Source: Clostridiales bacterium GWD2_32_19 (GTDB lineage Bacteria > Bacillota > Clostridia > Lachnospirales > UBA12420). From it: a stretch of DNA of 61,075 nt. Below, piece after piece: positions 8,880 through 38,493 of the stretch. The notes beneath the pieces are model-generated. The model searched no databases and was not told where the DNA came from. It saw only the letters and a program-made list of their open reading frames with translations. The stretch spans positions 1 to 61,075 of the forward strand of contig MGOU01000025.1 of assembly GCA_001795385.1 (NCBI GenBank), in the 5' to 3' direction. The translations under genes and the position numbers were made by a program. Numbering within the stretch: the first letter of the stretch is position 1; each line of letters starts with the position of its first letter.

Positions 8880-8902
8880 ATATAGTCCTCCTTTATTTTT
8901 GT

Positions 8903-10604: not shown

Positions 10605-10707
10605 AGTAAAACCTCCGTGTTAATTTTTGGGATTATGTGTTAATTAATAAACAATTATAACATATTTTTTGTTTTATTCAATTACTATTCTTCATTTTTT
10701 TACAATA

Positions 10708-10760: not shown

Positions 10761-10862
10761 CATTAAAAATTACATAATCTTTTAATATTTTTAATAGTAA
10801 TTATGTGTTATTTAACACTAAAACAGAGAGATACCATCTCCATATAAAATAGAACTTGTTTA

Positions 10863-11201: not shown

Positions 11202-11253
11202 ACATACACCTCCTCATATATCTTATATCATATTTCATTTTAAAAATCAACCA

Positions 11254-20489: not shown

Positions 20490-21356
20490 ATGAAAGGTAT
20501 TATTTTAGCTGGTGGGTATGGAACTCGTCTGTATCCTATTACTAAATCTATTTCTAAAAATATATTGCCTATATATGATAAACCTACTGTCTATTATACT
20601 ATAGCGATATTAATGCTCGCAGATATACGGGATATTCTTATTATTTCTACAACACAAGATATTTCAGCATACGAGCGACTGCTCGGGGATGGCAACAAAC
20701 TAGGCCTGAACTTTGTATACAAGATTCAGGAATCTCCATGTGGGCTCGCTGATGCATTTATCATAGGTGAAGATTTTATAGGCAACGATAATGTCGCACT
20801 TATTTTAGGTGACAACATTATATATGGTGAAACATTTCCTGATATATTACATGAAGCTGCAAATCTAAATGAAGGTGCTATTATCTTTGGTTACTATGTG
20901 GATAATCCTAAATCGTATGGGGTAGTGGAGTTTGATAAGAATGGCAAAGTTATATCTTTAGAAGAGAAGCCATCAGCTCCAAAGTCAAACTATGCAGTAC
21001 CCGGAATTTACTTTTATGACAATAAGGTTATAGAGATTGCTAAGAGTGTATTACCCTCCGCACGTGGTGAGATAGAAATAACAGACATCAATAAAGCATA
21101 CTTAGAATTAGGGCAGCTACAAGTAAAGATATTAAATGATATATTGTGGATAGATACAGGTACATATGATAATCTGCTCGACGTTAGCAATTTCATAAGA
21201 TCAATTCAAAGAGAGAAGTCATTATACATAGGAGCTATCGAGCAAATAGCCTACGAAAAAGGATATATAAATAGAGAACAATTACTTGCTTTAGCTGAAT
21301 CAATGTCCAAGTCTGGATATGGAGCATACCTAAAGTCTATAGTAGAAAGGATTTGA
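20490..21356 (+). CDS. rmlA: Glucose-1-phosphate thymidylyltransferase
   Basis: 288 residues. Makes dTDP-glucose from glucose 1-phosphate and dTTP, the first step of the dTDP-sugar route. The nucleotide-binding LAGGYGTRLYPITKS is at residues 6-20, ILPIYDKPTVYYTI follows, LGDNIIYG is near 108 and EEKPSAPKSNYAVPGIYFYD near 155-175. It is a short-form RmlA of normal length. AGGAGG precedes ATG 20490. First gene of the plus-strand arm of the glycan locus, with rmlC 4 nt downstream. Confidence 0.95.
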   Translation: MKGIILAGGYGTRLYPITKSISKNILPIYDKPTVYYTIAILMLADIRDILIISTTQDISAYERLLGDGNKLGLNFVYKIQESPCGLADAFIIGEDFIGNDNVALILGDNIIYGETFPDILHEAANLNEGAIIFGYYVDNPKSYGVVEFDKNGKVISLEEKPSAPKSNYAVPGIYFYDNKVIEIAKSVLPSARGEIEITDINKAYLELGQLQVKILNDILWIDTGTYDNLLDVSNFIRSIQREKSLYIGAIEQIAYEKGYINREQLLALAESMSKSGYGAYLKSIVERI

Positions 21357-21360
21357 AACT

Positions 21361-21912
21361 ATGAGTAAATTTACTGAAACCTACATAAAAGGGCTATATG
21401 TAATAGAGCCCTCTATGTTTAAAGATGCGCGTGGCTATTTTTTTGAATCATATAACCAAAAAGATTTTCATAAAAATGGAATAGATGCAAATTTCAAGCA
21501 AGACAATGAATCATATTCTAGAAAAGGTATCTTAAGAGGATTGCATTTTCAAAAAGAACATCAGCAAGGAAAACTAGTTCGAGTAATAAAGGGAACAGTA
21601 TATGATGTCGCAGTTGATCTAAGGAAGTACTCCCTTATGTACGGAAGATATTATAGCGTAATTTTATCAGAAGAGAACAAAAAACAATTTTATATCCCAG
21701 AAGGCTTTGCACATGGCTTTCTTGTGTTATCCGACGAAGCTATTTTTTCTTATAAATGCACTGATTTTTACTACAAAGATGAGCAAGGCGGAATATTATG
21801 GAATGACCATGATATAGGTATCGACTGGCCTGTAAAGGGAATAAATGAAATAATTTTAAACGAACGAGATCAAAGCTGGTCATTACTACGGGAATGTAGG
21901 GTGGAGTTGTAG
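21361..21912 (+). CDS. rmlC: dTDP-4-dehydrorhamnose 3,5-epimerase
   Basis: 183 residues, cupin fold. Converts dTDP-4-keto-6-deoxy-D-glucose to the L-lyxo form by inverting C3 and C5. Catalytic residues are visible: His in ILRGLHFQ (near 62), the Tyr in FSYKCTDFY (near 138) and Asp in AVDLR. These favour RmlC over the related 3,4-ketoisomerases. GAAAGGATTTG precedes ATG 21361. It lies between rmlA and rmlB. Confidence 0.92.
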   Translation: MSKFTETYIKGLYVIEPSMFKDARGYFFESYNQKDFHKNGIDANFKQDNESYSRKGILRGLHFQKEHQQGKLVRVIKGTVYDVAVDLRKYSLMYGRYYSVILSEENKKQFYIPEGFAHGFLVLSDEAIFSYKCTDFYYKDEQGGILWNDHDIGIDWPVKGINEIILNERDQSWSLLRECRVEL

Positions 21913-21983
21913 AAAAATTGAATATAAAATATATTAAAAACTATCATAATTTTTTAACACTAACTTAAGGACGGTGATAAACT

Positions 21984-22952
21984 GTGAAAACAATTTTAGT
22001 AACTGGCGGAGCTGGATTTATTGGTAGCAACTTTATAAAATATATGTTGAGTAGATATCCCGAGTATAAAATAATTAATCTAGATAGTTTAACATATGCT
22101 GGTGATGAAAAAAATCTTTCTGATATTGAAAATAATCCTAATTATCATTTTATAAAAGGTGATATAACAAATAGTCTATCAGTAGCTAGTATCGTAAAAA
22201 ATGGCGTATATTATATTGTTAATTTTGCCGCTGAATCTCATGTGGACAGGAGTATAGAAAGTCCTCTGATTTTTGCAATGACTAATGTTGTTGGTACTGG
22301 AGTATTGCTAGAAAGTGCACGAAGGTACGGCGTTTGTAAGTTTATTCAGATTAGTACTGACGAGGTTTACGGTAGCCTCGGTCATACTGGCTACTTTACA
22401 GAAAAAAGTATATTAGATCCGAGTAGCCCTTATTCTGCAAGCAAGGCTTCCGCAGATTTGCTCGTGCTTGCATACCATAGGACCTATAATTTATCCGTCA
22501 ACATAACTAGATGCTCCAATAATTATGGGCCTTACCAATTACCTGAAAAATTGATTCCTCGCATGGTATGTAATGCTTATAAGAGCAAGCCTCTTCCTGT
22601 GTATGGCCAAGGCACAAATGTACGTGACTGGATTCATGTAGAGGATCACTGCCGCGCAATAGATCTCGTATTACATAACGGGAAAATTGGTGAGGTCTAT
22701 AATATAGGTTCAAATAATGAAGTGTCTAACATTACTATTGTCAAATCGATCCTGAGTATTTTAGGCAAAGATGAAAGTCTTATAGAATACGTGGAAGATA
22801 GAAAAGGTCATGATTTCAGATATGCAATAGATTTTACGAAAATAAAAACCGAGTTAGGTTTTGAACCTAAATATGAGTTCGATAGTGGTTTAAAAGAAAC
22901 TGTGGAGTGGTATCTAGAAAATACTGATTGGTGGATGAGAAAGATTAGCTAA
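21984..22952 (+). CDS. rmlB: dTDP-glucose 4,6-dehydratase
   Basis: 322 residues, extended SDR. Converts dTDP-glucose to dTDP-4-keto-6-deoxyglucose with bound NAD. The Rossmann motif GGAGFIGSNFIKYM is at the N-terminus, STDEVYGSLG near 122 carries the catalytic Asp/Glu, and YSASKASAD has the YxxxK pair. The start is GTG 21984 behind AAGGACGGTG. No rmlD (final reductase to dTDP-rhamnose) is found in the window; an aminotransferase comes next instead. Confidence 0.95.
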   Translation: MKTILVTGGAGFIGSNFIKYMLSRYPEYKIINLDSLTYAGDEKNLSDIENNPNYHFIKGDITNSLSVASIVKNGVYYIVNFAAESHVDRSIESPLIFAMTNVVGTGVLLESARRYGVCKFIQISTDEVYGSLGHTGYFTEKSILDPSSPYSASKASADLLVLAYHRTYNLSVNITRCSNNYGPYQLPEKLIPRMVCNAYKSKPLPVYGQGTNVRDWIHVEDHCRAIDLVLHNGKIGEVYNIGSNNEVSNITIVKSILSILGKDESLIEYVEDRKGHDFRYAIDFTKIKTELGFEPKYEFDSGLKETVEWYLENTDWWMRKIS

Positions 22953-23017
22953 GGGAAGTCATTACGGCAAAAAATGTGCTGTCGCACGTTTGTCGTTATT
23001 TGAACGAATCGCCCCCG

Positions 23018-23067
23018 CCACATCATCCAGAGGAGAGTGTTCTTCTTGACGTGCTCCTCAGTATGAC
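23018..23067. repeat. Fragment of a CATCC(A/T)GAGGAG palindromic repeat
   Basis: CATCCAGAGGAG and CTCCTCAGTATGAC form an imperfect inverted repeat in the 185-nt gap between rmlB and the aminotransferase gene. A related TTGTCATCCTGGATG scrap lies near 20370. Looks like a decayed dispersed repeat. Confidence 0.35.
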
Positions 23068-23137
23068 GTATAGGGGAGGGCTTTTCTATTAAACAAAAAA
23101 CTGTGCTTTGCACATCAAAAAAAGGAGTTGAAAATTT

Positions 23138-24774: not shown

Positions 24775-24778
24775 AATT

Positions 24779-24809
24779 AATGGGGAAGGCGTGAAAAGCC
24801 TTCCTCATT
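24779..24809. terminator. Hairpin between the two convergent glycan arms
   Basis: GGAAGGC/GCCTTCC stem extended by AATG/CATT pairs with one mismatch; 7-nt loop; located between the ends of convergent genes. No long T-run, so only a probable terminator. Confidence 0.5.
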
Positions 24810-24818
24810 GCTATATTG

Positions 24819-26114
24819 CTATAAACTCCAATATATGAACTCATTTATAATATCACCTTTTTTATAAAATATGTTTTTAGTATCTATTATTATTGCATTA
24901 TTTGCGACAGTTAGTTTTTGTAGTTGTTCTAGTTTTAGATTCAAGTACTCTTTATGGGCTGTGCATATAATAATGGAATTTACATTTGTAACTGTATCTA
25001 TATCTGTTAGCTCCGTGTCATATATTGATTTGACCACTTCTGGTGAAGCATACAGGTCTGAGATGATTACTTCGATATCTTTTTTCTTTAGTTCATCGTA
25101 GATATCTTTTGATCTTGAGTTTCTTAGATCACCTACATTTTCTTTAAATGTAAGCCCCAGAAGCAATACTTTGCTTTTATTTAATTCATGTCCATATTTT
25201 TGTAATAATTCTATCGTTTTCTCTGCAACATATTTTCCAATCGAATCATTTATCTCCCTCACCGACATTAATAAATTAGGAGATATGCCAAGCTCTTTAG
25301 CTTTATAAATAAGATAGTACGGATCCACCCCTATACAATGCCCACCTACAAGCCCAGGCGTGAATTTCAAGAAATTCCATTTTGTTGCTGCGGCCTCTAG
25401 TACTTCATATGTATTTATATCTAACTTATCAAAAATAAGTGCTATTTCATTCATGAATCCAATATTTGTGTCTCTTTGTGCATTTTCAATCACTTTAGCC
25501 GCTTCTGCTACTTTTATCGAAGAGGCTTCATACAAGCCAGCTTTTATAATTCTGCCGTACACTTCTTTGATGATTTTCAAGCTATCTTGGTCTGATGCTG
25601 ACACAATTTTTACAATTTTATCTAAAGTATGGACTTTATCTCCACTATTAATCCTTTCTGGCGAATATCCTACACCAAACTCTTTTTTATACTTTAAATC
25701 TGACATTTTCTCTAGCACTGGCACGCATATGTCTTCCGTAACTCCTGGATATACAGTCGATTCATATACCACAATGTCTCCTATTTTAAGATTTACTCCT
25801 ACTATCTCTGAAGCTTTTATTAAAGGCTCCACATCTGGGATATTCTTTTCGTCTACTGGAGTCGGTACGGTGATAATATAAAAATTAACTTTTTTAAGCT
25901 TGTTTATATCAGATGTAAAATTGATATTTCTTATCCCTTTCAAATGTTTATCACCCACTTCATCTGTACAGTCTTCACCACTTATATATCGTTTTATTTT
26001 ATCTTCATTTAAGTCAAACCCTATAACTTCAAAGCCACTTTCTGCAAAATGTACAGCAAGCGGCAATCCTACATATCCTAAGCCTATAACAGCTATTATA
26101 TGTTTTTTATGCAT
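24819..26114 (-). CDS. Nucleotide sugar 6-dehydrogenase (TviB/WbpO type)
   Basis: 431 residues. NAD-dependent four-electron oxidation of a UDP-hexose or UDP-HexNAc to the uronic acid. The N-terminal NAD motif is VIGLGYVGLPLAVHFAESG, the centre has YESTVYPGVTED and the catalytic Cys is in GLVGGHCIGVDPYYLIYKA (near 265). The C-terminal part has LGLTFKENVGDLRNSR. These motifs favour the UDP-N-acetylhexosamine group over UDP-glucose dehydrogenase. AAAGAGGTG precedes ATG 26114. Last gene of the minus-strand arm. Confidence 0.92.
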   Translation of the reverse strand: MHKKHIIAVIGLGYVGLPLAVHFAESGFEVIGFDLNEDKIKRYISGEDCTDEVGDKHLKGIRNINFTSDINKLKKVNFYIITVPTPVDEKNIPDVEPLIKASEIVGVNLKIGDIVVYESTVYPGVTEDICVPVLEKMSDLKYKKEFGVGYSPERINSGDKVHTLDKIVKIVSASDQDSLKIIKEVYGRIIKAGLYEASSIKVAEAAKVIENAQRDTNIGFMNEIALIFDKLDINTYEVLEAAATKWNFLKFTPGLVGGHCIGVDPYYLIYKAKELGISPNLLMSVREINDSIGKYVAEKTIELLQKYGHELNKSKVLLLGLTFKENVGDLRNSRSKDIYDELKKKDIEVIISDLYASPEVVKSIYDTELTDIDTVTNVNSIIICTAHKEYLNLKLEQLQKLTVANNAIIIDTKNIFYKKGDIINEFIYWSL

Positions 26115-26130
26115 TTTTTATCACCTCTTT

Positions 26131-27213
26131 TCACATTTCTACTAATTCGTCATGCTCCATGATTTGCTTTACACACATCTCATACACATCATACTCTTTA
26201 TAATTTTTATACCACTCTGATGTTTTCTCTATAGCATCATCTATACTCCACTTAGGCATCCATCCTAAAACATGCTTTGCCTTAGAAATATCTAGATTAA
26301 GCAGTTTTGCTTCATGCAATTTGCTCACATTCTCTGGATACGTGATGTGTCCGCTTCCCCAATATTTAATTATCTTCTCTACAATTTCCTGAACAGTTAC
26401 AATATTATCTGATTTTGGTCCAAAATTCCATGCACCAGAGTATTCCACCCCATGTTCCATTAATTTAGCTCCTAAAAGCAAATATCCACTTAAAGGATCG
26501 AGAACGTGTTGCCACGGTCTTATTGCATTTGGATTTCTCACTAATATTTCACGTCCGTTATCTAGTGAATTCACAGTGTCAGGAATTATTCTATCTTTTG
26601 CCCAATCTCCGCCACCAATTACATTGCCAGCCCTTACTGAGGTCAAAACTTTTCCATGTTCATTATATCTATCTACATTAAAAAACGAGTTTCTATAACT
26701 ATCTACAATTAATTCAGCACATGCTTTGCTACAACTGTAAGGATCAATCCCTCCTAATCGTTCATTTTCCCTATAACCCCATAACCATTCTTTATTTTCA
26801 TAACACTTGTCACTTGTAATAATAATTCCAACTTTTGTTTCATCAGTTGACTTTACTGCATCTAGGACATTTACAGTTCCCATTACATTAGTGTCGAAAG
26901 TATATTTAGGCATTTCATACGAGGTTCTCACAATAGGCTGAGCTGCTAGGTGAAATACAATTTCAGGCTTATATTTTTTAAATATATTATCAACCAAATC
27001 AGTATTTCTGATGTCCCCTCTTATGTCCGTTATATGGTCTTTGATTTGAGATAACACGAAATTATCTCGTTCTGAATAAGGATCTAAGCTATATCCTATT
27101 ACATTAGCTCCAAGCTTATGAAGCCAAATTGAAAGCCATGAGCCCTTAAACCCTGTATGTCCTGTCACTAGAACATTTTTACCTTTATACGAATTTTCAA
27201 GTAGCGTGTTCAT
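26131..27213 (-). CDS. rfbG: CDP-glucose 4,6-dehydratase
   Basis: 360 residues. SDR enzyme that turns CDP-glucose into CDP-4-keto-6-deoxyglucose. VTGHTGFKGSWLSIWLHKLG binds NAD; the family-typical TSDKCYENKEWLWGYRENE (near 128-146), DPYSCSKACAELI with YxxxK, and IRPWQHVLDPLSGYL identify the CDP-specific branch. AAGGAGG precedes ATG 27213. It works with rfbF upstream in the same operon (30332-31069). Confidence 0.95.
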   Translation of the reverse strand: MNTLLENSYKGKNVLVTGHTGFKGSWLSIWLHKLGANVIGYSLDPYSERDNFVLSQIKDHITDIRGDIRNTDLVDNIFKKYKPEIVFHLAAQPIVRTSYEMPKYTFDTNVMGTVNVLDAVKSTDETKVGIIITSDKCYENKEWLWGYRENERLGGIDPYSCSKACAELIVDSYRNSFFNVDRYNEHGKVLTSVRAGNVIGGGDWAKDRIIPDTVNSLDNGREILVRNPNAIRPWQHVLDPLSGYLLLGAKLMEHGVEYSGAWNFGPKSDNIVTVQEIVEKIIKYWGSGHITYPENVSKLHEAKLLNLDISKAKHVLGWMPKWSIDDAIEKTSEWYKNYKEYDVYEMCVKQIMEHDELVEM

Positions 27214-27230
27214 TATACAACCTCCTTATT

Positions 27231-28202
27231 TCAAAGATAATGCTTCCTGTTCTCTTTAAACCATTCAACCGTTCTTCTAATGCCTTCTTCAAGTCCAACC
27301 CTTGGGGCCCATCCTAACATAGCTTTAATCTTAGTTATATCTGGCTCAGGATTCCACATTTCATTTTTTCTGTAGGGAATTGCGCCATATTTTGGCTTTT
27401 TATCAGTTTCCATATACTTAAATATTAAATCGATATAATACTTTAATTGATATGAAACACCAGTTCCAATGTTAACAACTTCATTTTTCATTGTATCATT
27501 TAAGGCTGCAAGAATGAGCCCATCTATAATATTTTCAATGTAGCAGTAATCTCTATACTGCTCGCATTTTGTTAGTTCTACATCTTTATTTTCTAGTAAA
27601 GTTACTATTACATCACAGAAAAATTTGTGTCGTTCCTCACCTTCACCAAATATTCCAAAAGGCCTTATGGTTACGATATTTATATCATTATCTCTAGCTA
27701 TTTGGTGAGAAATCATTGTAGCCGCTGCTTTTGTACTACCATAAATATTTAGTGGAGTAAGAAACATGCCTTCATGCATGTTTCTTTTCTTATCTCCATA
27801 CTCGGCAGAGCTCCCAATATTGATGATTTTTTTGCAACCTATGTCCCTAATAGAGTTTAGAATGTTTATAATTCCGGTTATATTAACGTTTACAGCTTTG
27901 ATGTATTCTTTTTTTGCTGAATCAACGCCATAAGCAGCTAAGTTGAATACGTACTCTGGCTTTACTGATTTTACACAATTATTAACCTCCGAAGTATTAA
28001 TTATATCGATATTGTACAAATCAACATTATTAATTTCATCTTTTAATCTCCATGGATTAGAATTATTGCTGAGTATTGAAATATTTGCACCTAAGGTTCT
28101 CAATCTTTTTACAAGATGAGAGCCTACAAAACCGAATCCCCCAGTAATAAGTACATTTTGATTTTTAAAGGAACCAGTACTAAAATTTTCTTCTACATCC
28201 AT
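27231..28202 (-). CDS. NAD-dependent epimerase/reductase of a CDP-sugar
   Basis: 323 residues, extended SDR: ITGGFGFVGSHLVKRL, NIGSSAEYGDKKRNMHEG, YGSTKAAATMI (YxxxK), and the C-terminal LGWAPRVGLEEGIRRTVEWF. Located between the CDP-glucose dehydratase and a glycosyltransferase, it most likely reduces or epimerises CDP-4-keto-6-deoxyglucose (RfbJ-like role). No RfbH-type dehydrase is present, so a 3,6-dideoxysugar is not expected. The start is ATG 28202 behind GAGGAGG; its first 23 bases overlap the end of the upstream gene. Confidence 0.88.
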   Translation of the reverse strand: MDVEENFSTGSFKNQNVLITGGFGFVGSHLVKRLRTLGANISILSNNSNPWRLKDEINNVDLYNIDIINTSEVNNCVKSVKPEYVFNLAAYGVDSAKKEYIKAVNVNITGIINILNSIRDIGCKKIINIGSSAEYGDKKRNMHEGMFLTPLNIYGSTKAAATMISHQIARDNDINIVTIRPFGIFGEGEERHKFFCDVIVTLLENKDVELTKCEQYRDYCYIENIIDGLILAALNDTMKNEVVNIGTGVSYQLKYYIDLIFKYMETDKKPKYGAIPYRKNEMWNPEPDITKIKAMLGWAPRVGLEEGIRRTVEWFKENRKHYL

Positions 28203-30318
28203 AATCAACCTCCTCGCTCTGCAAAAATTTAGAATTAAAATAATTTACAACTTTATTTATATCATTATTACTATAAAATTCTTCTATATAACTTCCTACA
28301 TATGGCTTCAACTTTTGGGTTGTATCTCTTACAGCATTAATGTATGGAATGTAAATATTGTTTATTATGTTACCATTAAATGTTAGCGGTCTTAGCTTCC
28401 ATAAATCATACTCATTTTCATTGTAAAATACCATACTTCCAAAATGATAAAATATCAGCTCATCATTTTCCACATATACTTTATCATTTATTTTTTCTAT
28501 TTTATAATCATTATTAAAAACAACATTCCATGGAGCAGCATTAATGCCTAAATTATTCTCTATTTTGATTCCTATAAATTTCATTGGTATCTCGTCTAGA
28601 TATTTTTGATCGCCCCATCTTTCAAACTCTGGCTGTGGGTCGTCGAAGCACCATTCGATACATTTTTTTCTCCACCAGTCAAGTACTCTGAAAGATTCCG
28701 CTTCTTTTTTAAAACCAATGAAACCTGCCTGAAAACCTCCATGTACCCTTTCAAGTTCAGAAGCACCTCTTTGTCTACATATATAAATATAATAGCCCTT
28801 CCAATTTTCAAAAATAGTCTTTGGATCATCAAAGAAAAACAAGTCAGCATCACAATAAATAACACCATCTATATCAAAATTCTTAAGTATATAATCCACT
28901 AAAGGCGCTTTCAACGTCCAGCAAAATTCATTCATATCCCTTTTTTCTTTAACTGCCCTTATCTCATCATCTTCTATATCCTGTAGTGGAATTAGGGTAA
29001 CATTTTCAAGCTCCATATTCGAGAGCGTACTATAACTTATATCATCGACACAACACATCCAAAAATGAAACTTTTCTGTGTTCTTTTTCATAGAATAGTA
29101 AAGCGTTAATCCTCTTATTAAATACTCTTTACTAACTATAGTGCAAAAACAGTAAGAATCGTCTTCTATGTCTACTCTATATTTTGGTAATAGGTATTTA
29201 TAATAAGTCTTTGCTTCAGTCACATCAGTTTTACTATATAAAAAATTCATGCTAGATTTCATTTTGTCTATACATTCTCTAATTGCAGTCAGATAAGGTA
29301 GATAAATCTTATTTTTTATAATACTTTGTATTGGTATATAATTAAAATTCCATAAGTCAAATTCTGAATCATTAAATATATTAATACATGCAAAGTGAAA
29401 TGCTACTAACTTGTGATTTTCTATATACATACAACTGTCTTTTTCATAAATATTATAATAATTATTATATACCAAATTCCATGGGGCAGCATCTACACCC
29501 AAATTTTCGCTAATTTTCACCCCTTCAAACATAAGAGGAAATTCGTCTATATACTTTTGATCCCCAAACCTATTATTATCAGTATCCGGAGTTCCCGAAC
29601 ACCACTCAAGGCATTTGCTTCTCCAAAAAGTTAAACATTTTCTAGCATTCTCATCATTTTTAAAACCTATTAATCCTGCTTGGTATTTCCCATACATATT
29701 TTCAACCCACTCTAAGTCTCTTTGTGGGCATAGAAAGATTGAGTAGCCTTCCCATTCATGGTAAATTTGGGAAGGATCAGAAAAGAAATATATATCTGAG
29801 TCACAATATATACAATCATTTACTCCATAGTTATCCAAAACATACTGAATTAATGGAGCTTTTAAAGTCCAACAATATTCATTTGTTTTTCTATCACCTT
29901 TAACTTTTAAAAGAGCCCTATCCTCTATCTTATCTAGTGTAATAATCTCTACACTATCTAACTCCATACCTGATAAACTCACATATGCTATCTCATCTAT
30001 GCAACATATCCATAACTTAAAGCTATCGCTATTCTTTTGTAGTGATTGGTGAAATGCCAATACCTTAAACAAGTATTCCTTGCCGACAATTGTACAAAAA
30101 TGGTGAAGAGCAGGATCCTTTGATACTTGCTCTTGTTCCAAATTTCTACTAAACTCCTGCGTTTCTACCCCGTCAAGTATATGTTTAGATTCATTGTTTT
30201 CATATGTAAAATATAGTTGTACATCCGAAGCTAGATCTTCCTTTATATCTGTTTCCTCATCCGTAAATATATTTTTTATATAATTTGCCACCTTAGTTAT
30301 AAAATTTTCTCGAGACAC
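28180..30318 (-). CDS. Tandem-duplicated GT-A nucleotide-diphospho-sugar transferase
   Basis: 712 residues with two homologous halves. Copy 1 (about 75-360) has CTIVGKEYLFKVLAFHQSL, WTLKAPLIQYVL, DSDIYFFSD and RFGDQKYIDEFPL. Copy 2 (about 390-690) has CTIVSKEYLIRGLTLYYSM, WTLKAPLVDYIL, DADLFFFDD and RWGDQKYLDEIPM. Both keep the DxD metal/nucleotide motif, so both may be active. A ~70-residue acidic N-terminal region precedes them. The likely role is sequential transfer of two sugars. The start is GTG 30318, with GAGGAGG 8 nt upstream; another GTG at 30327 touches the site. Confidence 0.85.
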   Translation of the reverse strand: MSRENFITKVANYIKNIFTDEETDIKEDLASDVQLYFTYENNESKHILDGVETQEFSRNLEQEQVSKDPALHHFCTIVGKEYLFKVLAFHQSLQKNSDSFKLWICCIDEIAYVSLSGMELDSVEIITLDKIEDRALLKVKGDRKTNEYCWTLKAPLIQYVLDNYGVNDCIYCDSDIYFFSDPSQIYHEWEGYSIFLCPQRDLEWVENMYGKYQAGLIGFKNDENARKCLTFWRSKCLEWCSGTPDTDNNRFGDQKYIDEFPLMFEGVKISENLGVDAAPWNLVYNNYYNIYEKDSCMYIENHKLVAFHFACINIFNDSEFDLWNFNYIPIQSIIKNKIYLPYLTAIRECIDKMKSSMNFLYSKTDVTEAKTYYKYLLPKYRVDIEDDSYCFCTIVSKEYLIRGLTLYYSMKKNTEKFHFWMCCVDDISYSTLSNMELENVTLIPLQDIEDDEIRAVKEKRDMNEFCWTLKAPLVDYILKNFDIDGVIYCDADLFFFDDPKTIFENWKGYYIYICRQRGASELERVHGGFQAGFIGFKKEAESFRVLDWWRKKCIEWCFDDPQPEFERWGDQKYLDEIPMKFIGIKIENNLGINAAPWNVVFNNDYKIEKINDKVYVENDELIFYHFGSMVFYNENEYDLWKLRPLTFNGNIINNIYIPYINAVRDTTQKLKPYVGSYIEEFYSNNDINKVVNYFNSKFLQSEEVDYGCRRKF

Positions 30319-30331
30319 CTCTATCACCTCC

Positions 30332-31069
30332 TCACATATTCCATTTTTGGTTTGCCTCTATTAAATCTTTATACGTATCTATTGCCATCCATATCCCTTT
30401 ATGCTCATATACCGCTAGCTCTCCATCATTTGCAAGTCTACTGAGCGGCTCGTTTTCCCATATACATTCATCATCTTCACTTAAATAATCAAAAACTTTC
30501 TTGTCTAGTACAAAGAATCCTCCATTTATCAATCCGTCAAGTGACGTTTTTTCATTGAATGACTCTGCTATACCATCTTTGACACTTAAAACTCCATACT
30601 GCGTTTTCCTTTCAACTCCTGTGACAGTAGCAATATTCCCTTTATACATATGAAAATTAATTAAATCATCAATATCTATGTCAGCAAGGCCATCACCATA
30701 GGTCAGCATAAAAGTATCCTCTTTTATGTATTTCTCAATTTTTTTAATTCTTCCACCTGTCATTGTTTCAAGCCCAGTATTTACAAATGTTATATTCCAT
30801 TTTTCATGTTCTTCAAGAAGTTCTATCCTATTTTCACTACCTATTTTCATAAAATCATGATTCATCCAATCATAATGCATGAAATATTCTTTTATTTTAT
30901 CTCCTTTATATCCTAGCGGAAGGATAAACTCATTAAAACCAAATTTACTATAAATTTTCATTATGTGCCATATAAGTGGTTTTTCATTTACTAAAGCCAA
31001 CGGTTTTGGAATATCCTCGTTTGTTTTTAATCTAGTTCCTTTTCCACCACACAAAATTACTACCTGCAT
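30332..31069 (-). CDS. rfbF: Glucose-1-phosphate cytidylyltransferase
   Basis: 245 residues. Makes CDP-glucose from CTP and glucose 1-phosphate, the first step of the CDP branch. VILCGGKGTRLKTNEDIPKP, FILPLGYKGDKIKEYF, VNTGLETMTGGRIKKIEKYI and MLTYGDGLADIDI are the family landmarks. The start is ATG 31069, with AAAGGAGG 7 nt upstream. An earlier in-frame ATG has no site and lies in the preceding gene. It follows the GT2 gene with 4 nt between. Confidence 0.95.
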   Translation of the reverse strand: MQVVILCGGKGTRLKTNEDIPKPLALVNEKPLIWHIMKIYSKFGFNEFILPLGYKGDKIKEYFMHYDWMNHDFMKIGSENRIELLEEHEKWNITFVNTGLETMTGGRIKKIEKYIKEDTFMLTYGDGLADIDIDDLINFHMYKGNIATVTGVERKTQYGVLSVKDGIAESFNEKTSLDGLINGGFFVLDKKVFDYLSEDDECIWENEPLSRLANDGELAVYEHKGIWMAIDTYKDLIEANQKWNM

Positions 31070-31073
31070 ATTT

Positions 31074-32027
31074 TTACCTCCTTTCGTTAATCTTGTTTTG
31101 AAGTTCTTTATATTTTTCACCTAGATAGGGATGTTTTCTAATATCTGTTACTTTATCATTTTCAGATCCACATTTTGAATATTCTCTATATACTTCAAAA
31201 AGCATACTATCCATATTTTCCTCTGATATCGTGAAGTTATCAAGGATATAATTTTTTAAACAAAATAAGTCCTCATAATAAAAACTACTTCTGCGATACT
31301 TTGCTATTATACTTTCGTTATGTCGCCTGTGGCAATTAAGAACCGTAGAACAGTAGCATATTTTGCCTTCCCTTAGAGCATACACATACATAATCCAGTC
31401 ATAGAAAACCTTAAATTGTTTCATATATTTTTCAACACCTTTAAGTGCATTTTTCTTGAAGACAACAGAACTGATATTGTAAACAGTGTTTTTTATACAT
31501 AGACTATTTTCAACAAAACTCTTACCATCTGCGCAAAAATCATCGGGAAGTTCTTTTTCGTCACTATAGTAATGTGCCAATTTATTATTACGTTCATCCA
31601 CAGGAATTGACTTGCAAAAATATACATTAGTCGTATCATCTTTATACATTTTTTTTATATTTTCTAAAAACTTATCACTGCAATAATCATCTTGTTCAGC
31701 AATCCAAACAAAATCACCTTTAGATTCATTTATCCCCCTAATAATCTGCCTTGCACAACCTTCATTACACCAATTTGCAATTATCCGGTATTTTATTTTA
31801 CTAGATTTTAATATTTTTTTTGCCAATTTTAAGCTCTTATCAGTCGATGCATCGTCTAGAAAAACTATCTCATCTGGCTTGCTTGTCTGATTAATTATAC
31901 TGCTAATCCTGTCCCTCAAATATCTTTCGCCATTATAGCACAGTACAACAGCACTTACTTTCATTTGTGCATCTTCGGCATTTTTAAAACCAATTTTTTC
32001 TAAAAAACTATTTATTATACTAATCAC
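31074..32027 (-). CDS. Family 2 glycosyltransferase
   Basis: 317 residues. GT-A fold: SAVVLCYNGERYLRDRISSI, VFLDDASTDKSLKLAKKI, NEGCARQIIRGINESKGDF and the metal-binding region VWIAEQDDYCSDKFLENI. The remaining ~150 residues form the acceptor part. The start is GTG 32027 behind AAGGAGGTG; an overlapping ATG at 32031-32029 is followed at once by a stop and cannot be used. It is the promoter-proximal gene of the minus arm, divergent from the propeller gene. Confidence 0.9.
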   Translation of the reverse strand: MISIINSFLEKIGFKNAEDAQMKVSAVVLCYNGERYLRDRISSIINQTSKPDEIVFLDDASTDKSLKLAKKILKSSKIKYRIIANWCNEGCARQIIRGINESKGDFVWIAEQDDYCSDKFLENIKKMYKDDTTNVYFCKSIPVDERNNKLAHYYSDEKELPDDFCADGKSFVENSLCIKNTVYNISSVVFKKNALKGVEKYMKQFKVFYDWIMYVYALREGKICYCSTVLNCHRRHNESIIAKYRRSSFYYEDLFCLKNYILDNFTISEENMDSMLFEVYREYSKCGSENDKVTDIRKHPYLGEKYKELQNKINERR

Positions 32028-32172
32028 ATGTTCACCTCCTTAAGTATATAATTTCTAGTACTTATAATCCTATCTATACTAATTATATGTACAAGTTTGC
32101 CTTATTGTTACCTTAATAGATCATTCTTGTTCTAAAACAGCTTGTCACAAATAGGAAATGTCTACATATATA

Positions 32173-32206
32173 ATATTATACTAGTGTATATCAACTGGTA
32201 TAATAT
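32173..32206 (+). promoter_or_regulatory. 13-bp inverted repeat covering the -10 box of the propeller gene
   Basis: ATATTATACTAGT (32173-32185) and ACTGGTATAATAT (32194-32206) are inverted copies with one mismatch and an 8-nt centre. The right arm contains TATAAT (32199-32204), a probable -10 box 24 nt before ATG 32228. The layout suggests an operator controlling this gene. Confidence 0.5.
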
Positions 32207-32227
32207 AAATTAAAGGAGTGATTCACT

Positions 32228-34213
32228 ATGGCAGAGCCATATATACCCTATGCTATACTGGCAAACGAAAGTGACTGTAGTCTTTACCTTATTGATTTAA
32301 ACGACTACACTGTTTTTTATAACCTTGAACTCCCTTACAATCCTGTCGGTATAGATATAGCACGTAAAAGTTCGGGTACACTTTCCCTGAAAGATAGTAT
32401 GATTGCTATTATAAGCAGTCGGGCAAATAAAAAATTTATGACTGTAGATTTGGGATTACGTACGCCTATCCTTAAAGATACAGAAGATGTTAATTTTCCA
32501 ATCACATCCATACGAAATGTAAATTTTCTTTATAATCCAACGCAAGTTCGTGCTGTTGGAGTTGGTACAATTAACGACCCAGGTATTGCAAGTTATACAA
32601 TCTCTGTAAGAAACACTATATACACAGACTCCATTCCAGGGCAATGCGTTTTTCTAAGTCTAAATGAAGATGAATATCATCGGTTATATTTTTTTGTAAC
32701 AGATTATACATCAAAGACACTTACTCTTTTTTGGTTGCACCAAAATGGAATTATCGAAAAAGACCATGTAGTCGACACATACACAGAACATCCTGTTTAT
32801 GTGGACCTTGCTTATGGTTGTATATTTGTTCTAACTGAAGAAGGAACTCTCTATGGCTATAAATATAATGGGTCAGGAAATATAAGTCTAGTAACGCAGA
32901 CAACTACTAATAATATCGCTCATTCATTTACCCAAAATAGTAGTGTGCAGGCTATCTACATTTTATCAGAGCACACCATAGAAGCATTTGAGTTTAACTC
33001 GAGTACATATCAATTAACCAAAGTTAACTCTTTCGAGCACGGAAGCACAGTTAATGTTCCCATCGGTATAAGAGGTATCGCTTTCAGTAATCCAGCTCAG
33101 AAGCTGGTGGTAAGCCTTGCGCCTTATGCTAAGGTGTTCGATTCAAATGGAGTACTTCTAAAAGAGTTGGATAATATTGAAGGTGAAACAAAAGGTATTG
33201 CTATATTTGAAAAGCAGGGAATTATTGAGCCAAACGAGATTTTACTTGCTACTTCCAGTGATGATACATTGTACAAAATAGATACAAATACCTTTGATGT
33301 TCTATCAACAACCGCTCTTAAAGAACACCTTTATCCCCCTCTAAATGCTACAAGTATAGCAGTACCGGAAAACGGAACGACCTGTGTAGTTATGGGTGAA
33401 AAAGGATGGTATACAAAAGTTTTTATTGGTGCAGAACAGCCATACATTACTTTCCACTTTATGTCTTATGTTAGTGCACATAGCGTTAAATACGGCAAAT
33501 ACGCTTTACTTGCTAGTGGTGGATATAATGAAAATGACGGTATCGACTGGATAGATGGATATAGCCACGTATATGCGGATGTACAAGGTGTTGAAGAATG
33601 CAATCTTATTTATGGGATATTTTATAAGACTAATCGTATAAAAGCGTATGGCGTTTACTATAAAGGTAACATTGGAAGTGTGTATGTAGGTGAAATACAG
33701 AACAAAAAAATACCTGCCGAAATTATGGTAAGTGACTCCCCAATAAATATAACCTTGACTCCTGATGAAAATTTTCTGTTAGTAGCATGTTACACTAGTA
33801 ACAAAGTAGACATTGTTGATATAAGCAATATTGAAAATGTATGCATTCCAATGTACTATATCCCTTGTCCACCAGAACATAAATATTTCGGTGTTGCCCA
33901 CTCTGTACTAACCAATGAAAAGCCGCAAACAATATTATATAGTAAAGTAAAAGACAAAGTATTTGTTTTAACAAAAGATTTTGTGGAAATTTATACGTTT
34001 GATTCCGTGGCAAAGACTTTAAATAAAGTATTTGAATTTATGCATTATCAAATTATTAACCCAATATATGGCGTAAACCAGATGACTATATCTAAAGATG
34101 GTAATCGCACATATATATTAGGAAGTGGTGTCATTAGCGTATTTGACACTAACAATGGTCAATATATTAGAAATATAACAGGTATCGACTTTACAAGTAT
34201 TTTTATATATTAA
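32228..34213 (+). CDS. Large beta-propeller (YVTN/WD-like) protein
   Basis: 661 residues without a signal peptide or membrane segment. The sequence is a series of four-stranded beta repeats, with motifs such as LYLIDLNDYTVFYNLELPYN, DTLYKIDTNTFDVLSTTAL and KVDIVDISNIENVCIPMYY. This suggests one or two propellers of about seven blades each (inference). The last ~200 residues include KDKVFVLTKDFVEIYTFD. No catalytic residues are evident, so binding or scaffolding is likely. AAAGGAG precedes ATG 32228. It is transcribed alone from the centre of the glycan locus, with a possible operator and a perfect palindromic terminator. Confidence 0.75.
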   Translation: MAEPYIPYAILANESDCSLYLIDLNDYTVFYNLELPYNPVGIDIARKSSGTLSLKDSMIAIISSRANKKFMTVDLGLRTPILKDTEDVNFPITSIRNVNFLYNPTQVRAVGVGTINDPGIASYTISVRNTIYTDSIPGQCVFLSLNEDEYHRLYFFVTDYTSKTLTLFWLHQNGIIEKDHVVDTYTEHPVYVDLAYGCIFVLTEEGTLYGYKYNGSGNISLVTQTTTNNIAHSFTQNSSVQAIYILSEHTIEAFEFNSSTYQLTKVNSFEHGSTVNVPIGIRGIAFSNPAQKLVVSLAPYAKVFDSNGVLLKELDNIEGETKGIAIFEKQGIIEPNEILLATSSDDTLYKIDTNTFDVLSTTALKEHLYPPLNATSIAVPENGTTCVVMGEKGWYTKVFIGAEQPYITFHFMSYVSAHSVKYGKYALLASGGYNENDGIDWIDGYSHVYADVQGVEECNLIYGIFYKTNRIKAYGVYYKGNIGSVYVGEIQNKKIPAEIMVSDSPINITLTPDENFLLVACYTSNKVDIVDISNIENVCIPMYYIPCPPEHKYFGVAHSVLTNEKPQTILYSKVKDKVFVLTKDFVEIYTFDSVAKTLNKVFEFMHYQIINPIYGVNQMTISKDGNRTYILGSGVISVFDTNNGQYIRNITGIDFTSIFIY

Positions 34214-34235
34214 CAAACAAATATTAATATAACAC

Positions 34236-34275
34236 AAACGTGACAGGCTTGCCAATTGGCAAGCCTGTCACGTTT
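34236..34275. terminator. Perfect 40-bp palindrome, bidirectional terminator
   Basis: Two exact 20-bp arms with no loop (AAACGTGACAGGCTTGCCAA and its reverse complement). It lies between the convergent propeller gene and a GT4 gene and includes the first base of the GT4 stop codon (34274-34276). Confidence 0.8.
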
Positions 34276-35497
34276 ATTGTTTATGAACCAATTTTAAAGT
34301 GTCAAAAGCATATTGTTGCATGAGAGTATGCTTTGTTTGTGTTCTATATAAACTGTATATTAAATCAGTTATTTTTTTCTTGGCAACTTTCCCATCAAAG
34401 TAGGTTTTGTACACCTTATATCCGGCTTCGCCCATTGCCTTAGCTTTATTTTTGTTATTTAATATATATATCATTTTAAGAGCAAGTTCTTCGCTATTTC
34501 CTTGCTCGAAATGAAATCCGGTTTTTCCGTCCTGGACGATATCTTCTGGGTCTGCCGTGTTTGCAGCGATAACTGGCCTTTTATGAGCCATAGCCTCAAT
34601 ATTTGTTCTTCCAAATGATTCATAAAATGATGGTTGAATTAAGGCTGAACAGTCATTATAAAGTTTAGATACATTTTCTGTAGGTGGATTTATTGATACA
34701 TAATCATTTATTTCCAGCTCACTTATCTGATTACTAAGATTTTGTGATTCATAACCATTACCATATAAGTTTACATGCGTCTTTATTCCTTTATCTTTTA
34801 TAATCTTCACAGCATCTACAAGTATGTTGTTACCTTTTTTAGGATCAAATGAATTTAAACAAATAAAGTTATTGATAGCCTCATTATAAGGCATACTTAC
34901 AGAAGGCTCAAATGCATAGTTTTGTATAGTTATTACATTATTTTTATCTGTAATATGCTCAAATCTTTTTTCTGTCCAATTTGAATTCATAACAACTTTA
35001 CTGCTTAAATTTATTATTGTTCTATCAATAAATGATTGGTATGTGGCATCTATTTCAGGAATAAACGCAGGTTCGAGTACACCACATATCCATGATATAA
35101 TAGGCAAATTCAAGGTGAATGCTGCAATATGTGGTATGAAATTAGTTAAGGTATTTACAATAACTATATCTGCCTTAGCTTCTTTAAATAGATTTATAAA
35201 TGTCTTTGTGTCTTCTCTTATACTTTCACAAAATATATCAAACTCTTGTGCATTCTTTGGTGATTTGTATATATACCACGGATTAGGAGGAGTATATACC
35301 ACTTCATACCCACTTTTTTGTGCAATACTTGCCATTTTCCCATTTTCAAGTGCTGGTATCATCAAAATAGGATGTATATTATTGTTATTGAAAAGAGTAA
35401 TACCAAATTTTCTATAAAATAGCTCAGCCAAACTGAGAAGTGAACGTTCAGCACCATGCAAATGATGACTATGCGATACTAAAGCGACATTTATCAT
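34274..35497 (-). CDS. Family 4 glycosyltransferase
   Basis: 407 residues, GT-B fold. N-terminal MINVALVSHSHHLHGAERSL is typical of GT4. The C-terminal donor-binding domain has CLNSFDPKKGNNILVDAVKI, YGNGYESQNL, and the E-x7-E motif region IQPSFYESFGRTNIEAMAHKRPVIA-like around residues 285-310. A donor with an NDP group is expected. GGAGG precedes ATG 35497. It follows the 601-residue glycosyltransferase with only 3 nt between, so the two form an operon. Confidence 0.9.
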   Translation of the reverse strand: MINVALVSHSHHLHGAERSLLSLAELFYRKFGITLFNNNNIHPILMIPALENGKMASIAQKSGYEVVYTPPNPWYIYKSPKNAQEFDIFCESIREDTKTFINLFKEAKADIVIVNTLTNFIPHIAAFTLNLPIISWICGVLEPAFIPEIDATYQSFIDRTIINLSSKVVMNSNWTEKRFEHITDKNNVITIQNYAFEPSVSMPYNEAINNFICLNSFDPKKGNNILVDAVKIIKDKGIKTHVNLYGNGYESQNLSNQISELEINDYVSINPPTENVSKLYNDCSALIQPSFYESFGRTNIEAMAHKRPVIAANTADPEDIVQDGKTGFHFEQGNSEELALKMIYILNNKNKAKAMGEAGYKVYKTYFDGKVAKKKITDLIYSLYRTQTKHTLMQQYAFDTLKLVHKQ

Positions 35498-35500
35498 TTT

Positions 35501-37306
35501 TCATTCCTCCTTTACCCTCTCTCTTTGTTTTATTACTTTATCTATCATCTTGCAAAACTTTTTTATTACTTTCTCCGTTGAATATCGTTTTTTTACATTG
35601 CTATGGCATTGGTTTTTTATTTTTGAGAGCAGATTTTTATTATTAATAAGTAAAGTGATTTTTTCTTCCCATGCGGATACGGTATTATCAGGCACGAGTA
35701 ATCCATCAATGCCATCTTTAACAACTTCATTATATGGATACATATCTGTATAAATTCCCGCAGCTTTTATTGCTCCTATTTCTAGATATTTATTAGGGCA
35801 CTTAGACATGGCACTTCTATTGTTAATTAAAGGTGCAAGCAACACATCTGGAGTTAAGTCTTTTATAGTTTTGCAATATATTTGATATGGCATATGTTCT
35901 ATCGTAATAATGTCAATCCCTTCAAATAATGACCTTTGCCTCTCACTCAAACCTCCAAACAATAAAACCCTAACGTTATCATATTTACGTGCAACATTTG
36001 ATAAGGCTGCAAAAGCAACATCGTCGTGTCTTAAAGAACCTGCATAGCCTATAAGCATCTTATCATTTGGGTTATTCTTACGAAATTTCGTTTTGCTATC
36101 CATATAAAAATCTAGATTTATATTTAATGGAAAAAGTATTGTGTTTTTGTTGTATATACTTATATCATCACAAAGAAATTTATTATAAGTTATTACGAAA
36201 TCGCATATTTTTATAGCTTCTATAAAAGTATCATATTGCGGGTTACCTTTAACGAATAGTTGTCCATAAACTTCTTTTAAATCTTCAGCTATACTTAGCC
36301 AATTATCGTCAATCATATACAAAGTTCCAATATTGTCTTTCTTGCATTTGTTAATAATCTCCAATATATTAGTGTTTCTACTCCGTACAATTATTACTAA
36401 ATCTGAACCTTCAACATCGTGAGGAGCTGATATATCATCTAAAAGCATTTTATATGTAGCAAATCCTTTACCATATAATTTATCTAAATAATTTAGAAAT
36501 GCTAATTGACTATGATGATATTCCCAATAACCTCCTATAATAGTTATTTTATAGCCTCTCAAATCTTTATAAAAACTTTTTTCCGTATTTTTATTTTGTG
36601 TATAAGGTACTTTCCTGTTTCTTAACACATATCGATGTACAATATCATTATTAAAATCAAAGCTTTCTTTAAAAGGATACTCCTTTAAGTTAATAATATT
36701 GTTTTTCACTTCCGTACCAATTATTGTGAAAGTAAAATATCTTGCTAGTCTAAGTATCCATTCCCAATCGAAATCTTTTTGCAGAAGATTTGACTCATCA
36801 AATTCACCTATCATTTTCCATGCTTCCTTAGATATAATAAGGTTACTTAATGCGAATAGCCTTGTACACTGTGACCATCCATAAATTAATGACTGATTTA
36901 TGGGCATAGGAATTTTATACTGTGTTTGACTATTTATTGCATATACATAAGAGTCTTCCATAGGATTCTTGGCAAATTCTTGTATACGATTTTCAAGATA
37001 ACAACCCGCCCATAAAAATGATAAATATGGAGTGCTTACATGTTTAAAAGCTATATTTAGTAGTTTTGCTGGTACATTTCTTTCCTCTTCAAATCTAATA
37101 AATTCTATATATTTAAATTGTGTTTTCAAATTTTGTATTAGTGAAGAGTCAGATAAATATATTCCCTCTGTTACCACAATAAGCATAATATTATCTTTTA
37201 CTATGCTCAAACTTTCTATAGTTTTCATAAGCATCTCTTCTGTTTCTAATGCTTTACCAAAGCATGCTAATATAACCGTTAATTTTATATTTTCATTTTC
37301 AATCAT
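35501..37306 (-). CDS. Two-domain glycosyltransferase (GT2-like plus GT4-like)
   Basis: 601 residues. The N-terminal ~230 residues look like GT2 (TVILACFGKALETEEMLMKT, FLWAGCYLENRIQEFAKN). Residues 255-601 form a GT-B half: YKITIIGGYWEYHHSQLAFL, MLIGYAGSLRHDDVAFAALS, LAPLINNRSAMSKCPNKYLE and AWEEKITLLINNKNLLSKIK. Such two-part enzymes add more than one sugar to a surface glycan or glycoprotein. AGGAGG precedes ATG 37306. First gene of a two-gene operon with the GT4 gene. Confidence 0.85.
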   Translation of the reverse strand: MIENENIKLTVILACFGKALETEEMLMKTIESLSIVKDNIMLIVVTEGIYLSDSSLIQNLKTQFKYIEFIRFEEERNVPAKLLNIAFKHVSTPYLSFLWAGCYLENRIQEFAKNPMEDSYVYAINSQTQYKIPMPINQSLIYGWSQCTRLFALSNLIISKEAWKMIGEFDESNLLQKDFDWEWILRLARYFTFTIIGTEVKNNIINLKEYPFKESFDFNNDIVHRYVLRNRKVPYTQNKNTEKSFYKDLRGYKITIIGGYWEYHHSQLAFLNYLDKLYGKGFATYKMLLDDISAPHDVEGSDLVIIVRSRNTNILEIINKCKKDNIGTLYMIDDNWLSIAEDLKEVYGQLFVKGNPQYDTFIEAIKICDFVITYNKFLCDDISIYNKNTILFPLNINLDFYMDSKTKFRKNNPNDKMLIGYAGSLRHDDVAFAALSNVARKYDNVRVLLFGGLSERQRSLFEGIDIITIEHMPYQIYCKTIKDLTPDVLLAPLINNRSAMSKCPNKYLEIGAIKAAGIYTDMYPYNEVVKDGIDGLLVPDNTVSAWEEKITLLINNKNLLSKIKNQCHSNVKKRYSTEKVIKKFCKMIDKVIKQRERVKEE

Positions 37307-37439
37307 TCCAATCCTCCTGTCACGCCTTTCTTTTTACCTTCTATATTATTATATTTAAAAATTTCAAGAACAGTGACAAGCATGCAAATAAAAACATGTA
37401 TATTTTTCCCTAGATATTATTTGCAGAGAACTATCCTAA

Positions 37440-38042
37440 AAACCTAAGTCAGATATTATCAAATACAGCTCCAAGTTATTATATAGAGCCCAATTCAAGA
37501 ATACTACCTATATTAAGTGTATAGTTTCAAATATAAAAGTTTTTGCTAATGGTAATAAACTTCTAGAAGCAGGTGTGGGAGCTGGAGAAATGATATCAGT
37601 TGCAAAAGAAATGCTATTTGATGTTACAGGTCTAGACATAAGACCTATATACGCCCAAAAGGTATCGGAAAGGTTTAATGTTCCGGTGTATGCCTCAGAT
37701 ATTATGCAACTTGAGACCGAAGAACAATTCGATGTTGTAGTATTAGGTGATATCATTGAGCATATTCAAAATCCTGTAGCGATGTTAAAGAAATGCTACA
37801 ACTTATTAAATGAAAACGGTGTTATATGGATTTCTACTCCTAACTTTGAAAGTGCGTTTTCTTATATTATGAAAGATAAAGATCCTATGTGGCGAGTATG
37901 TGAACATTTAAATTATTTTTCATATGATTCTCTAAAAAAGGTATTAGGTAATATTGGTTTCGAGGTCAAAGATTATAAAATATCACAACATTATAATGGT
38001 TCTATGGAAATAACCGCAATAAAAAAGCTTGAATTTTTGTAA
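37440..38042 (+). pseudogene. Decayed class I SAM-dependent methyltransferase
   Basis: The open frame runs from a stop at 37437 to 38042 but has no start codon with a ribosome binding site. The first possible start, GTG 37575, falls inside SAM motif I (NKLLEAGVGAGEMISVAKEM), which would lose its first strand. The later motifs are intact: VTGLDIRPIYA, DVVVLGDIIEHIQNPVAML and GVIWISTPNFES. In another frame upstream (about 37418-37521) a plausible N-terminal piece, SYYIEPNSRILPILSV, ends in a stop, so a frameshift near 37510 is likely. It lies between glycosyltransferase genes and a strong terminator and may once have modified a sugar. Confidence 0.6.
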
Positions 38043-38064
38043 TACAAAGATTCAAGCTTTTTTT
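38021..38064. terminator. Bidirectional terminator
   Basis: AAAAAAGCTTGAAT paired with ATTCAAGCTTTTTT around about 16 nt; overlaps the end of the methyltransferase remnant and faces the GNAT gene end at 38089. Confidence 0.8.
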
Positions 38065-38088
38065 GTAAATATATATGATGACTATATT

Positions 38089-38493
38089 TTATATACAAGC
38101 TAATTCTATATTAACTTTGAAACTTGGATTTATTTTATAGTATATATTCTCTTCACCTTTTTCAAAATTATTATTCAACGCAACTTTTTGACTTGCCATA
38201 TTTCCATTTTCTATTTTAAGTTCAATTGTCTTAATATCAGAATTATCAAATATGTCTTTAGATAATATTTGTAATCCCAATGTCGCAAGCCCTTTTCCTC
38301 TATATTTCTTATCAGTTATATATTCGACAGTACATTTACTTTCATCTTTCTTTATAGTCGCCCAAAACTTCGAGATGATTCTATCTTCAAATTCAAATAC
38401 ATAGTTCTTATAAACCTTATCTCCTGACTCTTTGTAATACATTTCTTTTAATTTTAGTGTATCAATTTCTACTTTTATGTCTTTTAAGGACAT
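38089..38493 (-). CDS. GNAT-family acetyltransferase
   Basis: 134 residues. The acetyl-CoA motif YRGKGLATLGLQILSK (near 78-93) and the C-terminal NMASQKVALNNNFEKGEE are typical of GNAT proteins. The protein is a little short and the substrate is unknown. GAGGTGAGAGA precedes ATG 38493. It lies 56 nt from the MORN gene on the same strand; no functional link is known. Confidence 0.8.
   Translation of the reverse strand: MSLKDIKVEIDTLKLKEMYYKESGDKVYKNYVFEFEDRIISKFWATIKKDESKCTVEYITDKKYRGKGLATLGLQILSKDIFDNSDIKTIELKIENGNMASQKVALNNNFEKGEENIYYKINPSFKVNIELACI

Follow-up and report, generated by a model that had tools for sequence, protein, structure and literature searches.

The window analysed here is a stretch of 61,075 nucleotides from Clostridiales bacterium GWD2_32_19 (assembly GCA_001795385.1, contig MGOU01000025.1, positions 1 to 61,075). 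Within it, a gene for a 661-residue beta-propeller protein lies between units of glycosyltransferase and sugar-nucleotide genes, and a short element with the form of a sporulation promoter stands upstream of it. The gene, the elements beside it and the related elements of two sugar operons are as follows (L002 and L017 are loci of the sibling genome G001).

32228..34213 (+): propeller open reading frame (ORF), 661 residues, read as a tandem double beta-propeller without signal peptide
32147..32172 (+): AC-N16-CATATATA, promoter-like element of mother-cell type belonging to the propeller gene; conserved in L002
32082..32108 (-): AC-N17-CATATAAT, promoter-like element of the divergent GT2 operon; conserved in L002
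20424..20450 (+): AC-N17-CATATTAT, promoter-like element upstream of the rml-type operon, with a conserved counterpart in L017
32173..32206 (no strand): inverted repeat with 13-bp arms (32173-32185 and 32194-32206) and 8 nt between them
34236..34275 (no strand): perfect 40-bp palindrome lying between two convergent genes, with the look of a terminator on either strand

The propeller gene and its protein

The 661-residue ORF at 32228-34213 (+) is real, and at E <= 0.001 no second copy occurs in the 47 contigs (1.97 Mb) of the genome. The protein lacks a hydrophobic N-terminus, the peak 19-residue mean hydropathy being 0.79 for stretches that start within the first 30 positions. By sequence, its closest solved structure is 3U4Y, matched at residues 503-654 with E 1.7e-11 (7.8e-12 by profile). 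The C-terminal half matches the 3U4Y family directly and the N-terminal half only through L018, a single-domain relative of 316 residues from another genome, which itself matches 3U4Y from end to end (E 2.7e-59). BLAST aligned the propeller to L018 twice, residues 1-319 on 1-305 (E 3e-12) and 457-654 on 134-304 (E 2e-12), with composition correction off and in a set of five sequences, and hhalign placed residues 1-320 on 1-306 of L018 with a probability of 91%. The N- and C-terminal halves also match each other in register near their starts and ends, with a local score of 86 (mean 40 and maximum 71 in 300 shuffles). Because L018 matches both halves and the halves match each other, we read the protein as a tandem of two 3U4Y-family propellers of about 330 residues each. 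An earlier note on this DNA had described one 661-residue propeller without signal peptide; its length and the missing hydrophobic N-terminus stand, but the single propeller gives way to two units of about 330 residues in tandem.

Structure models were of low confidence: the full-length model, built from two sequences, had a predicted local distance difference test score (pLDDT) of 31.9, and the model of the N-terminal half a pLDDT of 47.4 with a predicted template-modelling score of 0.48. A fold search with this low-confidence half model placed 3U4Y in the top two ranks (E 2e-9, TM-scores 0.37-0.40, root-mean-square deviation about 16 for 3U4Y). The structure, Dtox_1751 of Desulfotomaculum acetoxidans, has no known function, and we take its propeller to be seven-bladed. 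It is thus the nearest structure to our protein by sequence, and to the N-terminal half by a weak-model fold search, but it is a single unit of 331 residues, whereas the window protein would be two such units in tandem within a glycan locus. The likeness to Lactonase or YVTN-type beta-propellers is weak: Pfam gave a single match, Lactonase (PF10282) at residues 495-632, whose 19.3 bits lie below the curated cut-off of 21.7, so the protein does not qualify as a member of that family. Two matches in NCBIfam were both far under their cut-offs, and the best match in PHROGs had an E of only 0.92. No propeller match was found among plasmids, phages and viral contigs, and an origin from such elements was set aside.

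It is useful to trace how narrowly the gene is distributed. A full-length relative is present in one other genome of the genus only, the sibling G001 (locus L002), where it is 91% identical. With its own genome counted, the propeller occurs in 2 of 39 relatives and in 1 of 391 in the class sample; a profile of the two sequences matched 7 of 398 in the phylum sample, six of these matches covering just 42-84 residues. The single-domain relative L018 is carried by one of the 63 genomes of its class, which is its own genome, and therefore the family could not be linked to sporulation. No ORF in the 15 kb around L018 was recognisable as a glycan gene, judging by eye and without a family search; membership of the fold family thus does not imply a glycan connection. 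The earlier note had held that propeller homologues away from glycan genes would speak against a glycan connection; L018 is such a homologue in part, being single-domain, but in our searches of the relatives, the class sample and the phylum sample the two-domain form was met solely in this locus. A further arrangement was seen at L019:7200-10037, where adjacent proteins of 460 and 464 residues, each with an N-terminal domain followed by a propeller, are weakly related to the 661-residue protein.

Promoter-like elements of the propeller and sugar operons

The element AC-N16-CATATATA upstream of the propeller gene has the layout of a sporulation promoter of the mother cell (sigma-K/E), from which we infer the identity of its sigma factor. 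This form (AC or ATA, about 16-18 bp, then a CATA-type -10) is matched here by sequence. A study of Clostridioides difficile (PMC3789822) gives ATA-N16-CATATATA for the sigma-E promoter of spoIIID and AC with CATATAAT for the sigma-K promoter sigK P2; it treats CATATTAT as a canonical -10 of mother-cell promoters and calls a spacing of 16-18 bp more classical.

Comparison with the sibling shows that the AC...CATA element is conserved at all three orthologous units (propeller, GT2 and rmlA). At the propeller, the stretch from GTTCTAAAA through CATATATAATATTATACTAG is retained with few changes, unlike the right arm of the inverted repeat. Upstream of GT2 the sequence has diverged between the species except for the retained AC-N17-CATATAAT.

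In the window, the motif AC-N16/17-CATATWWW is found in 4 of 38 same-strand upstream regions (each up to 200 nt and at least 50), namely those of the propeller, GT2, rmlA and a 143-residue protein. The whole window has nine such sites on both strands, five of them outside those regions. The backward motif occurred in none of the 38 regions, and the opposite strand gave 2 of 38 because the shared divergent gap has one site per strand. A Markov simulation had a mean of 0.365, and four hits were reached in 0 of 1000 runs. Three overlapping stretches of the sibling had the motif at 2 of 4, 2 of 7 and 0 of 8 (L016) units, these being rmlA, GT2 (counted twice) and the propeller. Two stretches of G002, the third genome compared in the genus, had it at 0 of 13 and 0 of 6 units.

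The 143-residue protein (780-1211, minus strand) has AC-N17-CATATAAT upstream at 1309-1335. With six cysteines in its first 24 residues and a long NENEN-type repeat, it resembles a protein of the spore coat or spore surface, and the only matches in family searches were of low complexity.

The glycan locus and its conservation

The genes around the propeller are listed below.

20490..22952 (+): rml-type operon of three genes, rmlA, rmlC and rmlB (names read from the sequences)
26131..27213 (-): sugar-nucleotide 4,6-dehydratase type (CDP-glucose by our judgement)
27231..28208 (-): NAD-dependent epimerase/dehydratase
28180..30327 (-): putative 715-residue glycosyltransferase, tandem halves 45% identical over 297 residues (role read by eye)
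30332..31120 (-): nucleotidyltransferase of sugar-nucleotide type
31074..32027 (-): GT2 glycosyltransferase, with which the divergent operon begins
34274..35497 (-): glycosyltransferase of GT4 type whose gene converges on that of the propeller; not at this place in L002
35501..37306 (-): 601-residue glycosyltransferase, 71% identical to its ortholog, the 613-residue protein adjoining the propeller in L002

The propeller gene is 200 bp from the divergent GT2 operon, and on its other side it converges on the GT4-type gene (34274-35497) and the 601-residue glycosyltransferase, which bears out the earlier placing of the gene between glycosyltransferase units. No Pfam family scored above its cut-off on the putative 715-residue glycosyltransferase. 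Sporulation genes are present in the window (SpoIIE, SpoIIP, GPR, YabQ and SpoVT) and elsewhere in the genome (SpoIVA and DpaA). Among genes of at least 90 residues in the locus (20490-38493) there is no multi-pass membrane protein, each having at most one 19-residue stretch with mean hydropathy >1.6. By this hydropathy measure no flippase or polymerase is seen, and the enzymes of the locus therefore probably act on a cytosolic acceptor.

The sibling has retained the order dehydratase, epimerase, glycosyltransferase, nucleotidyltransferase, GT2, propeller and 613-residue glycosyltransferase. It differs in an extra 135-residue gene before the propeller and in the absence of the GT4-type gene after it. 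This extra gene (L002:7440-7847, minus strand), between GT2 and the propeller, has AC-N17-CATAGTAT upstream and is without Pfam family, NCBIfam family or viral relative. Two of the three genomes of the genus thus carry the propeller, in the same locus position. G002 has neither the propeller nor the 715-residue glycosyltransferase, a co-occurrence that over three genomes is only suggestive, and its spoIIP is flanked by hrcA, grpE and dnaK (names read from sequence) and not by the glycan locus.

How has this gene changed along the two lineages? The promoter-like element and the ORF form one block (32129-34213) that is 91.8% identical between window and sibling, and in blastn neither immediate flank aligns in continuity with it. 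The propeller has a ratio of nonsynonymous to synonymous divergence (dN/dS) of 0.27 and a dS of 0.18, as compared with dN/dS of 0.07-0.20 and dS of 0.33-1.07 in ten neighbours. Differences at fourfold sites number 31 of 241 (13%) in the propeller and 14 of 54 (26%) in GT2, and reach 18-53% in nine other genes. By these ratios the propeller is under purifying selection, and a dS this low suggests that the cassette was exchanged recently or that the gene is strongly expressed.

Proposed role and alternatives

In our preferred reading, which we hold to be about evenly poised between right and wrong, the propeller is a soluble spore-surface protein, a scaffold or an acceptor of glycans, and the mother cell produces it alongside the sugar machinery. 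Its promoter, AC-N16-CATATATA at 32147-32172, would be sigma-K-like (or sigma-E/K-like) and active in the mother cell during sporulation. As the GT2 and rml operons would be read from the same promoter class, the mother-cell cytosol would come to contain the activated sugars and the glycosyltransferases at the same time as the propeller. There the protein may be glycosylated, serve as a scaffold, or both, before being laid down on the outer spore surface. A lectin role would fit the same observations as well as these two. This cytosolic route seems the likeliest because the protein has no signal peptide and no flippase or polymerase is seen in the locus. A signal-less protein among sugar enzymes without membrane export parts is what would be looked for in a spore-glycoprotein locus. 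The suggestion of the earlier note that the propeller is connected with the spore surface and with glycans gains support from the elements at the propeller, GT2 and rml units, from the same position in two of three genomes and from the absence of multi-pass membrane proteins. The sporulation or spore-glycan connection is, in our judgement, better grounded than before, though still inferred and without a conserved operator of the gene's own.

Most of the spore-surface glycoproteins known from Firmicutes are, to our knowledge, either collagen-like or small cysteine-rich coat proteins. Two known systems offer parallels. According to PMC7439481, sigma-K promoters drive the sps genes of Bacillus subtilis in the mother cell. 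The sugar operons of the window, with their sigma-K-like elements, resemble these loci for spore crust legionaminic acid and other sugars; the differences are that sigma control in the window is a prediction and that its locus includes a propeller gene. In C. difficile, according to PMC7157674, SgtA adds O-linked N-acetylglucosamine (O-GlcNAc) to peptides of BclA3, an O-glycosylated exosporial protein, and here too a glycosyltransferase adjoins the gene of a spore-surface protein. The setting of SgtA action is presumably cytosolic. BclA3 is collagen-like, whereas the window protein would be a double propeller whose glycosylation is only predicted. Among the titles and abstract openings that searches of the open-licence PMC library listed, none describes a beta-propeller in a spore glycan locus, and the "propeller" of PMC5434927 is a shape seen by electron microscopy. 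The sigma-K spore-glycan theme is already known, and a double propeller within it would be the new element. If our reading is true, the 3U4Y family, which has a solved structure but no known function, would gain a role. It would also define a gene set for spore-surface glycosylation in uncultured clostridia, comprising the propeller, sugar-nucleotide enzymes and a tandem glycosyltransferase.

A bolder version of the same proposal, which we consider rather unlikely, would make the propeller a kind of spore-surface building block not described before, namely a dedicated cytosolic glycosylation substrate or a glycan-reading scaffold of a sugar locus under sigma-K control. Gene and promoter would pass as one cassette from species to species, and the protein would stand in for the collagen-like BclA proteins found elsewhere.

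Several observations weigh against the spore-surface reading. The sigma factor, the timing, and the expression, spore location and glycosylation of the propeller are predicted from sequence. The gene is carried by two close species only, and a recent exchange of the cassette could have carried the promoter along without selection on it. The phmmer match of the N-terminal half to L018 is weak (domain E 0.005). The known spore genes spoIVA and dpaA, taken as controls for the mother-cell consensus in the genus, lack the strict motif within 300 nt upstream in all three genomes (start codons taken mechanically). The genome-wide motif counts are mixed. Together, the exact patterns of the GT2 and propeller elements have 48 matches in the genome; 41 of these fall inside mechanical ORFs of at least 100 residues, as may happen with a short motif in an AT-rich genome, three are intergenic without a following ORF, and four lie just upstream of an ORF, three of them in this window. 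The independent weight of these upstream hits is small, since two of the three in the window served to define the patterns, and the one outside it stands before a doubtful 89-residue ORF. The CATATAAT pattern is commoner than its backward control (22 vs 11), but the CATATATA pattern is rarer (26 vs 32).

Some of these points favour an alternative that we regard as unlikely yet deserving serious attention. Under it the locus makes a vegetative cell-surface glycan and is read from ordinary sigma-A promoters, the propeller works in the cytosol, as a scaffold for glycan assembly or as its regulator, and the CATA elements have arisen by chance in AT-rich DNA. Besides the negative spoIVA and dpaA controls and the many matches inside ORFs, a TATAAT or TATTAT inside each conserved element agrees with it. 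The GT2 site of the window also fits sigma-A (GTAACA-18-TATAAT, 10/12), but at the sibling GT2 site the -35 of this reading is just 3/6. A sigma-A-like TAGAAA-16-TATTAT (9/12) overlaps the conserved propeller element of the sibling, while its counterpart in the window has a -35 of 3/6; the TATAAT conserved inside this element has a -35 of at most 2/6, and the rmlA -35 hexamers reach 3/6 at most. At none of these elements did the scans list a sigma-A-like site in both species, and a weak one may nevertheless be present. The conservation of AC...CATA at all three orthologous units and the lack of a visible flippase or polymerase also argue for the mother-cell reading over this one.

We think it improbable that the propeller is a metabolic or sensing protein (a lactonase-like enzyme or a ligand binder) unrelated to glycans, whose mobile cassette came to sit in this gap by chance. 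The sub-threshold Lactonase match, the neighbours of L018 without recognised glycan genes, and a conserved block of low dS whose flanks do not align are what such a cassette might show. Its position between GT2 and the 601/613-residue glycosyltransferase is, however, the same in both species despite rearranged surroundings, it shares a promoter class with the glycan operons, and the genome without the propeller also lacks the 715-residue glycosyltransferase (n=3).

The inverted repeat has arms that are complementary at 12 of 13 positions. The earlier note had seen in it an operator over the -10 box, and hence separate control of the gene. The repeat itself is confirmed, but the -10 is not: the sigma-70 scan lists no plus-strand site spanning it, and the TATAAT within its right arm has a -35 hexamer of at best 3/6 at 16-18 bp. 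The ortholog has the left arm without the right, while the promoter-like element is retained, so the repeat was rejected as a conserved operator; nor does control appear separate, as two neighbouring glycan operons bear the same class of promoter-like element. A single sibling genome thus suffices to tell a conserved promoter from a repeat that is not conserved. A leader hairpin was considered and rejected as well. The RNA of 32165-32227 folds at -15.1 kcal/mol (z-score -3.4, 1 of 200 shuffles equally good), but the sibling leader has no comparable fold (z-score -0.1). A transcription start about 7 nt past CATATATA, the usual spacing from a -10 element, would lie within the left arm. That the repeat is a lineage-specific working operator or leader hairpin tuning the propeller separately is thus highly improbable in spite of its arms and its fold, given the sibling and given that among 82 loci the 34-bp repeat pattern occurs in none besides three which are this same place.

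The palindrome at 34236-34275 is perfect over 40 bp, exactly as first reported, and ends the unit. RNA of 34225-34290 folds at -35.5 kcal/mol (z-score -10.6, 0 of 200 shuffles as good). In the same convergent gap the sibling has a different sequence that folds at a z-score of -3.4, a hairpin that the terminator scan does not list. A bidirectional terminator is the best reading of the window palindrome, and a role as a special element was discarded in view of this other folding sequence.

Some minor observations concern the surroundings. The sibling has an intact gene for a 704-residue GT2-TPR-methyltransferase (L017:713-2827) directly before rmlA, of which the window retains only a remnant at 37417-38042 (plus strand), its frame changing near 37512-37518. 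The first nine residues of the sibling protein are those coded by the SgtA primer, a lead that falls short of a homology test. A gas-vesicle cluster of the sibling (L016, about 7198-11998; GvpA-type, with GvpN and GvpF/L by our reading) lies between its glycan locus and spoIIP/gpr. A link to gas vesicles was dismissed, since the Gas_vesicle family is absent from the window genome yet present, on another contig, in the propeller-less G002. Finally, a mechanical ORF at L082 (G000:C37 near 18358) has a translation that repeats VSIHAPARGAT, which we take to resemble a translated CRISPR repeat.
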